This document shows positions 3,619-31,829 of a DNA stretch of 36,656 bases, one piece after another. The translations under genes and the position numbers were made by a program. Origin of the DNA: Andreprevotia lacus DSM 23236. Its GTDB lineage: Bacteria; Pseudomonadota; Gammaproteobacteria; Burkholderiales; Chitinibacteraceae. The stretch covers positions 1 through 36,656 of the forward strand of contig NZ_FWXD01000035.1 of assembly GCF_900176275.1 (NCBI RefSeq). The letters are read 5' to 3'. The notes under the pieces were generated by a model, which did not search any database, had not been told where the DNA came from, and saw nothing but the letters and a program-made list of their open reading frames with translations. Position 1 is the first letter of the stretch. Every line of letters starts with the position of its first letter.

Positions 3619-4366
3619 TGATCTGCTCGCGCAGCGCCTTCAGTTTGCCTTCCTGCGCCAGTGCCTTGAACGCGGCATCGAAGCGCTGGAACAGCGCCGG
3701 GTCCACCTGCGGGTTGAAGGCGTAGTAGCAGCCGCGGTTGCGCTGTATCGGCCAGGCCACCTGCAGTTGCTCGGCCGGCAGGCCGAGCTGGCGGGCTTGC
3801 CAGGCATAAGAGAGCAACACGCCGGACACCAGCTCGAAGCGCCCGGCATACAGCATGCGCACGATGCTGCCATTGGCCGGCACGCCGGTGACGGTGCGCA
3901 TCGGGTAGCCCAGATTGTGCAGGATGTCCTGATCGGCGCCGACCGAAGGCACGCCGACGGTGTAACGGGCCATATCGGCGGGTTTGTCGATCTGGATACG
4001 GCGATTGCGCGCCAGCTTGATCAAAACCACGTCGCAATCGTCAATGGGGCCCACCCAGCGGTAGAGCGCTTCGCGCTGCACGGTGCGCACGGTGGTGAAC
4101 AGGATGCTGTTGGTATCGTCGGCATTGCTGTTGACGGCACGCTGCCAGGGCATGAAGCGGGTGTCTATGCTCAGCCCGGCCCGTTTGGCGATCTCGTCGA
4201 GCAGGTGCACCGAGAGGCCACGCGGCTGGCCTTGTTCGGTGTAGTTGAACGGGGCGAATTCTTCGGTATAGGCGCGCAAGTCGGCTGCGCGGGCGTGGCC
4301 TGAGGCCAGCAGCGCAAGCAGGGCATGCAATATCGGCTGCCAGCGTGAGGCGATCATGCGGGTCAT
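3608..4366 (-). CDS. Periplasmic solute-binding protein, SBP_bac_3 type (orphan)
   Basis: The protein follows the amino-acid-binding (family 3) pattern: a signal peptide ending near ARA, then an opening strand with EEFAPFNYTEQGQPRGLSVHLLDEIAKRAGL, the usual PPFxY...G...D/H...i...G motif of the first lobe. LARN, KPADMARYTVGVPSVGADQDIL marks the hinge and second lobe. About 252 aa from the ATG at 4366; further starts lie at 4357 (ATG) and 4384 (TTG), and none has a good Shine-Dalgarno. No permease or ATPase gene is adjacent. Such orphans may feed distant ABC systems or act as sensors; the ligand is unknown. Confidence 0.85.
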   Translation of the reverse strand: MTRMIASRWQPILHALLALLASGHARAADLRAYTEEFAPFNYTEQGQPRGLSVHLLDEIAKRAGLSIDTRFMPWQRAVNSNADDTNSILFTTVRTVQREALYRWVGPIDDCDVVLIKLARNRRIQIDKPADMARYTVGVPSVGADQDILHNLGYPMRTVTGVPANGSIVRMLYAGRFELVSGVLLSYAWQARQLGLPAEQLQVAWPIQRNRGCYYAFNPQVDPALFQRFDAAFKALAQEGKLKALREQIIKP

Positions 4367-7335: not shown

Positions 7336-7600
7336 GGCCTGTTAACACTTATTTCACGCTTGCGTTCGGGGTAGTTCGGGATGGAGCGCAAGGCGCAAAA
7401 CGCGCCGCGGTACGGGTACCGCAAGCGGTTTGCAACGCAGCGAACCGCCCGAAATACCCCGAACCCGCAGGGCTGGGCCGCAAAGAGGTCATCTACGGCG
7501 TTACGCGCCTTGGCAATAACCGGTTATTGCCTGCGTTGCGTGCCTTTTAGCTGACCTCTTTGCGGCCCAGCGCAAGCGCGAAATAAGTGTTAACAGGCCC
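7335..7600 (+). repeat. 266-bp non-coding inverted-repeat element (MITE-like), copy 2
   Basis: The ends are 30-bp inverted repeats (7335-7364 and 7571-7600, beginning GGGCCTGTTAACACTTATTT) with one mismatch, flanked by TA at 7333-7334 and 7601-7602. Inside are a 16-bp near-perfect pair (7365-7380 with 7448-7463), a central palindrome (7407-7422), a perfect 18-bp pair (7474-7491 with 7552-7569) and, within it, the perfect 20-bp palindrome GGCAATAACCGGTTATTGCC (7512-7531). No credible gene is present. TA duplications suggest mobilisation by an IS630- or IS427(IS5)-type transposase acting from elsewhere, which is an inference. Confidence 0.9.
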
Positions 7601-8730: not shown

Positions 8731-8996
8731 GGGCCTGTTAACACTTATTTCACGCTTGCGTTCGGGGTAGTTCGGGATGGAGCGCAAGGCGCAGAACGCG
8801 CCGCGGTACGGGTACCGCAAGCGGTTTGCAACGCAGCGAACCGCCCGAAATACCCCGAACCCGCAGGGCTGGGCCGCAAAGAGGCCATCTACGGCGTTAC
8901 GCGCCTTGGCAATAACCGGTTATTGCCTGCGTTGCGTGCCTTGTAGCTGACCTCTTTGCGGCCCAGCGCAAGCGCGAAATAAGTGTTAACAGGCCC
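8731..8996 (+). repeat. 266-bp non-coding inverted-repeat element (MITE-like), copy 3
   Basis: Same length and orientation as the copy at 7335-7600, with about three base differences that I could see. TA flanks it on both sides (8729-8730 and 8997-8998). All internal palindromes are conserved. Such near-identity suggests recent movement or gene conversion. Confidence 0.9.
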
Positions 8997-29660: not shown

Positions 29661-30107
29661 TCAGTCGTGACCTTGTATCAACGCCTCAATCTGCGCCCGC
29701 TTCTTGGCAAAGCTGCCAAAGATGCCCTCATCGGCATCGTAATCGGCCTGATGCTCGGCGACAAAGGCCACGGCGGCGCGTAGCTCGTGCCAGATGGGGG
29801 TGACGTCGCTGCGTTGCTCTCTGGCGCGGACGGCAATCAGGCCCAGGAAGCAGTCTGCTGCTGTGGCGTTGTCAATGTCGTCCGGGTTGGCGCGGGCCAG
29901 CACACTGTCGCGAAAGCCCAATACGTAATAGTGGAAGGCTTTGACCGGCATGAAGTGCAGCTCTTCAAACACTTCGATGGGGCTGGCGTCATAGCGCAAA
30001 CGCATCTCGCTATTGCTGCGGCCAAAGTAGGTGCGGTAAGCAAAGCGGGATTCCACATCGGCTTTCCAGCCAGTCCAGTCCGCTTCATTGGGGATGGTGT
30101 CGTTCAC
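29661..30107 (-). CDS. Uncharacterised protein at the end of the small-gene run
   Basis: A soluble protein (149 codons including the stop) with an aromatic-rich middle (FEELHFMPVKAFHYYVLGFRDSVL) and a helical end. I chose the GTG at 30107; an upstream in-frame ATG at 30140 or TTG at 30167 would lengthen it but overlap the previous small gene more. It overlaps the end of the 58-aa gene by 23 bases in another frame. It may be the distal gene of the operon or an independent gene. No family recognised. Confidence 0.62.
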   Translation of the reverse strand: MNDTIPNEADWTGWKADVESRFAYRTYFGRSNSEMRLRYDASPIEVFEELHFMPVKAFHYYVLGFRDSVLARANPDDIDNATAADCFLGLIAVRAREQRSDVTPIWHELRAAVAFVAEHQADYDADEGIFGSFAKKRAQIEALIQGHD

Positions 30108-30261
30108 CGGTTTGCTCGGGGCGCGGTGTAATGCCGGCATCGTTACCGCGCTGCGCAGGCGCGTCAACTTGCTTGGCGTGCTGTTGCTGCAAATGAAAAA
30201 ACTGCAGCCGCCGCTGCCGTTGCGTGGCGGCGGCGTGCTGGGTGAAACGGCGTGCGTTCAT
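30085..30261 (-). CDS. Small basic protein of the overlapping small-gene operon
   Basis: A 58-aa protein rich in Arg, Gln and His (MNARRFTQHAAATQRQRR start). The frame opens with ATG at 30261, three bases after the previous stop, with GGGAG upstream inside the previous gene, and closes with TGA at 30085. Composition suggests a nucleic-acid-binding or structural role, but that is a guess. Confidence 0.6.
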   Translation of the reverse strand: MNARRFTQHAAATQRQRRLQFFHLQQQHAKQVDAPAQRGNDAGITPRPEQTGERHHPQ

Positions 30262-30264
30262 GGC

Positions 30265-30447
30265 TTACTCCCAGACTTCGCGGTCTTGTTCGTGGCGTTC
30301 TTGCAGGCGCAGGCGTACTTCGCGGCGCTGTTGGGCCTGGGCTGCGGCGGTGGGGCGCTTGGCCGGCTTGCTGGCCGTGGGTGCGTGGCCGCGCCACGGG
30401 GTGTTGGCAAGGCGGGCGTGCTCGGCGCGTTGGCGGGTGGTGGTCAT
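30265..30447 (-). CDS. Small charged protein of the overlapping small-gene operon
   Basis: A 60-aa protein beginning MTTTRQRAEHARLANTPWRG and ending in a helix with RREVRLRLQERHEQDREVWE. It is basic and rich in Arg, Gln and Glu, without membrane segments. AGGAG sits before the ATG at 30447, inside the end of the previous gene; the previous stop overlaps this start (ATGA). The C-terminal part could be a coiled coil. No family recognised. Confidence 0.65.
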   Translation of the reverse strand: MTTTRQRAEHARLANTPWRGHAPTASKPAKRPTAAAQAQQRREVRLRLQERHEQDREVWE

Positions 30448-30680
30448 GCGTTCTCCTGAATACGGGTGGCAAGCAGGTACAGCGTGGCGCGCAGCCAGCG
30501 CGGCAGCGGGGCGTCGCCGGGGCTGGTCAGTGCGTGGCGGGCCTGTTGGTAGAGTGGCGTGTGCAGCAGCGCCGGTTGTTGCAGATACAGGCGCAGCAGC
30601 AACTGGCGGGCGCGGCCTTGGGTGGCCAGCGGCGCTTCAGCCGGTGTGCTGCGCGGTTTGATATGCAGGTGCAGAGGCAT
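30444..30680 (-). CDS. Small protein of the overlapping small-gene operon
   Basis: A 78-aa protein starting MPLHLHIKPRSTPAEAPL and continuing with helices (RARQLLLRLYLQQPALL, RWLRATLYLLATRI). It has a strong ribosome-binding site, AAGGAG, before the ATG at 30680. Its TGA overlaps the ATG of the next gene. Unknown function. Confidence 0.68.
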   Translation of the reverse strand: MPLHLHIKPRSTPAEAPLATQGRARQLLLRLYLQQPALLHTPLYQQARHALTSPGDAPLPRWLRATLYLLATRIQENA

Positions 30681-30765: not shown

Positions 30766-30861
30766 CTAGCTGTTGGCGCCCCAGGCGCTCAACAGCAAAT
30801 AAGCCAGGCACAGCGCCAGATACAGTGCACCCCAGCCCAGTGCGGCCAGCGCGCTACGCAT
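30766..30861 (-). CDS. 31-aa single-span membrane protein
   Basis: A very short protein that is almost entirely one membrane helix: LAALGWGALYLALCLAYLLLSAW. The ATG at 30861 overlaps the end of the previous gene by 8 bases, and the frame ends in TAG at 30766. Tiny single-span proteins like this occur in phage lysis or small toxin modules, which is only a comparison. Confidence 0.55.
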   Translation of the reverse strand: MRSALAALGWGALYLALCLAYLLLSAWGANS

Positions 30862-31018
30862 GGCGCACTGCCACGGCCAGCAGGTTGAGCCGGCCCCGGC
30901 GGATGGCCTTGCAGCCGCTGGCGGCCTCCAGCGCGGCGCGGCGGCGGGCGTTTTGTGCCAGGCCCGGCAGGATCAGCACATTGGTGATGCGCCAGCGGCG
31001 CGGTGTGGCGGCGCTCAT
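30854..31018 (-). CDS. 54-aa basic protein of the overlapping small-gene operon
   Basis: It begins MSAATPRRWRITNVLILPGL, followed by an Arg/Ala-rich helix, and ends in VAVRHA. The ATG at 31018 overlaps the previous stop (ATGA), and GGGG lies upstream. Basic and rich in Arg; no family recognised. Confidence 0.6.
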   Translation of the reverse strand: MSAATPRRWRITNVLILPGLAQNARRRAALEAASGCKAIRRGRLNLLAVAVRHA

Positions 31019-31257
31019 GCGGCCAGCCCCACGTATACGCCGTGGCGATGGCGCGCCTCGGCCCATGCCTGCTGCTCCAGCTCGTCCTGCCAGTGCGGTG
31101 CCAGCACATCCCAGATATCGGCCTCGCCCACGCAGGCGGCGTGAATGGTGAGAGCCTCGGCCCGACGCAGGTGGGGCGCGGCCGCTTGATAGTCGTAATC
31201 GACCAGCAGGGTGAGCGGGCTGGCCGCATCGGCCAGCGTGGCGGCAAAGCGTTCCAT
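31015..31257 (-). CDS. 80-aa phage-type protein of the overlapping small-gene operon
   Basis: It begins MERFAATLADAASPLTLLVDYDYQAAAPHLRRAEALTIHA. A strand with DYDYxxAxP, a later VGEADIWDVL and a helical end with WQDELEQQAWAEA follow the layout of a small protein I recall from prophage early regions (DYDY...AEV...GVDI...). That memory is not verified here. GGAG sits upstream of the ATG at 31257. Its start shares one base with the previous stop. Confidence 0.65.
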   Translation of the reverse strand: MERFAATLADAASPLTLLVDYDYQAAAPHLRRAEALTIHAACVGEADIWDVLAPHWQDELEQQAWAEARHRHGVYVGLAA

Positions 31258-31466
31258 CAGGCGATCTCCAGCGTGGTTTCCACCGCCAGCAATGCGCCGG
31301 CATCGGCATGGTCGGGCACGATCAGGCGACCGGCGCGCAGCAGGCCGGCCAGCTCGCGCAGCAAATCGGACTTCTGCATGGTCAGATTGTGTGCGGCCAG
31401 TTCGTAATCCATGGTTAGCAAAGACTGGCCGATCAGTTCGTCGTCCAGCGGGCAGGCGGTATGCAT
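31257..31466 (-). CDS. First gene of the overlapping small-gene operon, 69 aa
   Basis: It begins MHTACPLDDELIGQSLLTMD and continues helically (MQKSDLLRELAGLLRAGRLIV). GGAGGT, one of the strongest ribosome-binding sites in the window, lies at good spacing before the ATG at 31466 and directly after a terminator. Acidic start and helical pattern could fit a small regulator, but no family is recognised. Confidence 0.68.
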   Translation of the reverse strand: MHTACPLDDELIGQSLLTMDYELAAHNLTMQKSDLLRELAGLLRAGRLIVPDHADAGALLAVETTLEIA

Positions 31467-31476
31467 GGCAACCTCC

Positions 31477-31503
31477 AAAAAAATCCCCGGCACAAGACCG
31501 GGG
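31477..31503 (-). terminator. Intrinsic terminator or attenuator before the small-gene operon
   Basis: On the minus strand CCCCGG-TCTTGTG-CCGGGG is followed by A and seven T. The T run leads straight into the GGAGGT ribosome-binding site of the 69-aa gene (31471-31476). The terminator would separate the leader RNA from the operon unless read through. Confidence 0.85.
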
Positions 31504-31794
31504 TGAAGCTCGAGGATGAAGCAAGGTGCCGCAGGCACCGGTGATGCATGGCTGTGCATCCGGCAACAGACTGCGGGGCAATCTGCTGGCGGATGCCGAC
31601 CCTGGCGGGCCGGCCCATCTGCGCACCACTCAGCCGCTGCGGCAGCCTCATCGGGGTGCCGCGCCCCGCCCATTGGCCGTATGCCGTGCCGGGCTGCAGA
31701 CCCACGCTTGGTGTCCGTCCTGCGTTCCCGCTGTTGCGGTACTGGCCTCGGGGGGCTGGCGTGAACCGGGGTAGGTGCTGAGTGGTGCGTCGAT
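31477..31794 (-). ncRNA. Structured leader or independent non-coding RNA, about 315 nt
   Basis: Starting about 10 bases after the -10 box, the transcript's first bases (31789-31777) can pair perfectly over 13 bp with 31634-31622 (CGCACCACTCAGC with its complement), closing a domain of about 155 nt. Next come a hairpin with 15-nt arms at 31596-31582 / 31570-31556, a GGTGCC-TGC-GGCACC hairpin (31525-31539) and the terminator. I recognise no known RNA family. The start point is an estimate from the promoter. Confidence 0.6.
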
Positions 31795-31800
31795 ATCGTT

Positions 31801-31829
31801 ATATTAACTAAAGTTAGTTAATTTGTCAA
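31801..31829 (-). promoter_or_regulatory. Near-consensus promoter with an operator-like palindrome
   Basis: Minus strand: TTGACA (31829-31824), exactly 17 bp, TAATAT (31806-31801). A perfect inverted repeat, TTAACTAA-AG-TTAGTTAA on the plus strand (31804-31821), fills most of the spacer and reaches into the -10 box, so a bound protein would block RNA polymerase. Confidence 0.8.

Follow-up and report, generated by a model that had tools for sequence, protein, structure and literature searches.

A probable terminator-ended structured leader and a putative CI-type operator precede an operon of small ORFs in Andreprevotia lacus

The window analysed here is the whole 36,656-nucleotide stretch of contig NZ_FWXD01000035.1 of Andreprevotia lacus DSM 23236. 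All parts of the unit that we describe lie on its minus strand, which the preliminary description of the locus did not give, and they run from a promoter through a leader region and a terminator into a series of small open reading frames (ORFs), as follows.

31829-31801, minus strand: sigma-70 promoter, TTGACA-17-TAATAT, with 10 of 12 consensus matches in a consensus scan
31803-31822: palindromic operator, CI-type by sequence, with its core TAAC-N4-GTTA at 31805-31816, from the promoter spacer into the -10 element
31618-31794, minus strand: 5' domain of about 177 nt, predicted by folding to be closed by a 13-bp long-range helix
31777-31789, minus strand: 5' arm of the 13-bp helix, an exact inverted repeat
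31622-31634, minus strand: 3' arm of the 13-bp helix, an exact inverted repeat
31556-31596, minus strand: hairpin with 19-nt arms (31556-31574/31578-31596), 84% complementary, with 3 nt between them
31525-31539, minus strand: 6-bp hairpin GGTGCC/GGCACC, from folding and sequence
31477-31503, minus strand: intrinsic terminator, a 7-bp stem (31503-31485) plus U-run, from a terminator scan and sequence
31257-31466, minus strand: g1, 69 aa; its Shine-Dalgarno GGAGG (31476-31472) comes immediately behind the U-run, and the frame would also allow a longer start at 31673
31015-31257, minus strand: g2, 80 aa, overlapping the stop of g1
30854-31018, minus strand: g3, 54 aa, overlapping the stop of g2
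30766-30861, minus strand: g4, 31 aa, hydrophobic by eye, overlapping the stop of g3
30444-30680, minus strand: g5, 78 aa
30265-30447, minus strand: g6, 60 aa, overlapping the stop of g5
30085-30261, minus strand: g7, a doubtful 58-aa ORF that is not coding-like (codon score -0.04)

Promoter spacing predicts a transcription start near 31794, and at the other end of the leader the U-run of the terminator passes into GGAGG, with the g1 ATG following 5 bases later. A consensus scan of the minus strand from 31801 to 30265, the end of g6, found no second promoter-like site. A codon score, for which 14 long ORFs of the window served as training set, was negative in all six frames of the leader (-0.19 to -0.37), which agrees with the earlier view that no coding frame is plausible across the region, though open frames do span it, including g1 when extended upstream to the ATG at 31673. 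The same score gave +0.22 to +0.37 for g1-g6 in their own frames, on a scale where six of seven other ORFs (two of the seven overlapping on opposite strands) fell between 0.03 and 0.25 and one at -0.11. By this measure the leader appears to be non-coding, and g1-g6 appear to be genuine coding ORFs.

Searches of Pfam, PHROGs and NCBIfam (10 ORFs each) and of PADLOC (8 ORFs) returned nothing confident for g1-g8, the weak matches having E values of at least 0.009; g1 gave a weak YciZ-like match below the cut-off. Among the 10 ORFs scanned around the unit, no phage protein family, repressor, antirepressor or Q-like gene was recognised. Sequence searches, which covered g6 and g7 in the family libraries only, found g1 solely in its own genome among 120 and nowhere in viral or genome contigs, plasmids or phages, while g2 had no match in viral contigs, genome contigs or phages and, in 300 genomes, matched its own plus two others weakly at E 0.005. 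No match to g5 was found in plasmids, and g1-g5 joined together matched, across 369 genomes, their own and six others weakly; the one of these six that was inspected, L019, lies antisense to a 524-codon ORF. The leader DNA matched one of 100 relatives, its own genome, and nothing in phages and plasmids, and a covariance model built from the single leader sequence recovered under strict filters one of 61, itself. An 18-mer over the 5' arm matched one viral contig, which we took as chance in view of the lack of adjoining similarity; two further short matches to that contig lie elsewhere in the window. No convincing homologue of the small proteins searched was found, and none of the leader. In synteny comparisons with 19.9-kb stretches of two congeners, a single gene matched the window, and the open-access literature searched, with partial coverage, held no report of an orphan unit of this sort.

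The next gene after the operon, g8 (window 29661-30167, minus strand), has a distant relative in a genome of the same family (20% identity, E 7e-7), which sits among fragments that we take to be RHS-core-like; this setting suggests that g8 may be an immunity-type protein. At the contig end, 36329-36649 (minus strand) carries a transposase-like ORF, and an insertion sequence possibly broke the assembly there.

Turning to the leader itself, the preliminary description had proposed a perfect 13-bp helix between 31777-31789 and 31622-31634, and the exact inverted repeat is there, its arms growing to 18 nt at 89% if mismatches are allowed. The terminator proposed for the 3' end of the RNA is likewise present. 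Of the hairpins between them, the 6-bp one was recovered, but the clean 15-nt arms described for the other were not, the actual arms being 19 nt long and imperfect. In the predicted ensemble all 13 helix pairs have probabilities of 0.98-1.0, and six of the seven terminator pairs have a probability of 1.0. A 13-bp repeat within 200 nt arose in just 0.25% of 2000 shuffles of the leader region, so that the helix stands above shuffled expectation, but the figure is optimistic since native DNA is richer in such repeats than its shuffles: the whole window holds five, against a mean of 0.2 and a maximum of 2 in 30 shuffles, two of the five lying in copies of one dispersed repeat and one inside g2. 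The folding energy of the leader gave z -3.1 against 100 dinucleotide shuffles, and its stability was unremarkable after GC correction (z -0.95, with 96 of 674 window stretches equally or more stable). What is unusual in the leader is the perfect long-range helix together with the promoter and operator, not overall stability. The best alternative, antiterminator-like pairing was 8 bp, matched by 11.6% of 2000 shuffles and not significant. An Rfam scan, put forward in the preliminary description as a check, gave no match anywhere in the window at the gathering cut-off, and five weaker matches (E up to 5) all lay over the terminator; C4 antisense RNA was absent even from these sub-cut-off matches.

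Elsewhere in the window, the lowest GC-corrected folding energies belong to a strongly folded intergenic repeat of about 200 bp, MITE/REP-like, with perfect inverted arms of at least 14 bp (~7345-7562 and ~8740-8958). A near-identical ORF reading of this repeat occurs on another contig of the same genome, C23 (L015, ~3899-4127).

Within the 36.7-kb window, the only exact TAAC-N4-GTTA is the one at this promoter. Across the genome (4.6 Mb), CTAAC-N4-GTTA occurs in exactly two places, the window promoter and a site, OR1, on contig C23, compared with 23 matches per strand for the reversed pattern, a control in which dinucleotides are not preserved. When up to 3 mismatches were allowed, the promoter palindrome had one match besides itself in its own genome, again on C23 (reversed control, one match on each strand), and reversed-pattern controls for longer patterns gave 1+1 and 2+2 matches. 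The window site and OR1 are alike at 15 of 16 bases in the same register. For such a match, a second-order Markov model trained on the two contigs gives an expectation of 0.0005 in the whole genome, and the expected number per 200 kb at 55-60% AT is 0.011 to 0.022. On C23 the site is flanked by a gene for an HTH/S24 repressor on one side and a P22_Cro-like gene (just below the Pfam cut-off) on the other, with DUF1376 and DnaB genes next, in what has the look of a prophage cI-cro region. It is one of three sites there, spaced 25 and 23 bp apart, that differ from TAAC-N4-GTTA at 1, 2 and 0 positions. Beside this prophage, two neighbouring genes, L015 4996-5568 and 6402-7142 (minus strand), seem by eye to be related in their N-terminal parts.

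The register is common to a third promoter, in the family relative G029, such that all three share the ungapped pattern TTG.........CTAAC....GTTA..AT, with the operator in an identical position within -35 to -10. G029 carries CTAAC-N4-GTTA exactly five times, once at cI-cro and four times elsewhere, so that site count alone is weak, and the 15/16 match is the stronger evidence. In phage HK639, the CI of which shares 32% identity with C23 CI, TAAC-N4-GTTA is found exactly four times: once at the annotated pL, where its register (base 14) is that of the window, and three times at 24-25 bp spacing between cI and cro (0.10 expected in 5.5 kb). The annotated pR of HK639 is without a site in this register, which slightly lowers our confidence in the explanation preferred below. 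Among the phages with CI relatives that were examined (7 of 389 matched records), only HK639 has the array at cI; of the six others, one carries two sites at a distance from cI and the remaining five lack the site altogether. Among nine cellular cI loci, with approximate start positions, the motif was seen by eye only in C23 and G029, and no stretch in viral contigs held the exact 18-base operator. The operator specificity is that of one sub-family as judged from these sites, and we infer, at the level of sequence identity, that the window site is a CI operator. As in lambda-type CI systems, the cI-cro interval of both C23 and HK639 holds a three-site array, and the site overlaps an early promoter; unlike them, the window holds a single exact site. 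With regard to the cI linkage looked for at an early promoter, no cI gene was recognised among the 10 ORFs scanned around the unit, and the matching cI is on C23.

Known phage systems offer several parallels to this arrangement. At HK639 pL, as here, TAAC-N4-GTTA stands in the same register at an early promoter and a non-coding RNA precedes the first small gene: the annotation places a putL-like antiterminator RNA after pL and then a small hypothetical gene, which suggests by analogy that the leader may play an antiterminator-type role. Unlike the window unit, HK639 has no terminator-like site by our scan in the locus around pL (1-1300), its one annotated terminator being upstream of pL. The leader also showed no similarity to HK639 putL, the only put compared (local score 15, reached by 86% of 300 shuffles). 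HK022 put is about 70 nt with two stem-loops (PMC9378689), unlike the leader of about 318 nt with its predicted long-range closing helix and predicted 177-nt multibranch domain. PMC4825925 describes for Gifsy-1 IsrK, an sRNA/mRNA, a promoter, a short RNA, a terminator and read-through into small ORFs; the window unit has its sequence elements in the same order, with read-through here a presumed step, but lacks a recognised antirepressor or AntQ-like neighbour among the ORFs scanned. As described in the same paper (PMC4825925), phage P4 immunity (CI RNA) has a non-coding leader that contains complementary segments and is terminated ahead of small genes, and the window leader likewise has complementary segments and a terminator before small genes. 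P4-type CI-RNA immunity was nevertheless rejected, as no seqC-like third segment is present (the best has mismatches at 5 of 13 positions) and there is one complementary pair down to 31400; unlike in P4, moreover, the window promoter contains an operator of the protein-CI type.

Taken as a whole, the locus is probably a stranded lambdoid-type early (pL-like) unit outside any recognisable prophage, repressed in trans by CI and furnished with a terminator-ended structured leader. The preliminary description's putative transcript, structured and non-coding and running from a strong repressible promoter to a terminator, is supported, but it does not look free-standing, given that the terminator abuts the Shine-Dalgarno of a small ORF. 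Our best reading is that it would be the leader or attenuator of g1-g6, possibly also releasing an RNA of about 318 nt, because of this abutment and because no other minus-strand promoter-like site lies down to 30265, which would leave terminator read-through as the sole visible route to transcribe the operon. In this scheme, CI of the C23 type would bind TAAC-N4-GTTA across the promoter and keep it off in lysogeny. Inactivation of CI, for which DNA damage is the expected trigger since the C23 CI has a Peptidase_S24 domain, would let transcription start and the leader be made, its first 177 nt or so folding as the predicted helix-closed domain. Most transcripts would then end at the terminator, before the g1 ribosome site, releasing the short RNA. 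Expression of the operon would depend on read-through alone, which either the leader itself or a phage antitermination factor would control.

Other explanations share part of this evidence. The operator may serve a different phage repressor from this sub-family, one that is unlinked or has been lost, with the unit a decaying remnant without present regulation; this is possible, if on balance unlikely, and would fit the lack of a recognised repressor gene next to the unit, the failure to find relatives, the prophage being on another contig and the non-coding look of g7, yet decay sits poorly with 15 of 16 bases kept, a perfect palindrome, a good promoter and coding-like ORFs. That the RNA of about 318 nt is instead a free-standing regulatory RNA gene, with the ORFs past the terminator incidental or fed by leak, we consider unlikely: it does have its own promoter, a 5' end within the long helix and a terminator, but that terminator is fused to the g1 Shine-Dalgarno, no other minus-strand promoter-like site precedes g1-g6, these ORFs are coding-like and no homologue of the RNA occurs in the genomes searched.

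Less likely again, the inverted repeats could be chance products of GC-rich intergenic DNA ahead of an ordinary operon whose operator serves another type of repressor, such as TetR or MarR. The fold stability is indeed ordinary for GC, and the palindrome, centred two bases off the TAAC-N4-GTTA core, could suit such a repressor; the rarity of the 13-bp helix in region shuffles argues against chance repeats, and the register and flanks in common with cI-cro promoters against a different repressor type. Within the preferred leader reading, a special case would be an IsrK-like dual system, in which the short RNA opens translation of its own read-through mRNA in trans. The order promoter, RNA, terminator, small ORF is identical (PMC4825925), and the G residues of the g1 Shine-Dalgarno are predicted to be mostly paired, but this pairing is local and mainly with the first codons, both the A and the U of the start codon are predicted to be largely free of pairing, and neither an antirepressor nor a Q-like gene is recognised in the ORFs scanned; we hold this case to be very unlikely.

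Going beyond the CI-repressed early unit that we favour, it is a doubtful but conceivable extension that the leader represents an undescribed class of phage leader RNA, in which a helix-closed 5' domain of about 177 nt would set read-through at an adjacent terminator in a CI-controlled early operon, with a put- or P4-CI-like function and an unrelated structure, and which would survive here as a chromosomal unit on its own, responding to prophage induction by turning on a set of orphan small proteins. If the favoured reading is right, the repressor of a resident prophage would govern a chromosomal operon, distant from it, that encodes orphan small proteins, and the structured RNA and terminator would act as a second check on that operon. 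Prophage induction would then be tied to functions outside the prophage, and a new leader RNA candidate, open to testing, would occupy a position known in phages to be used for antiterminator RNAs.
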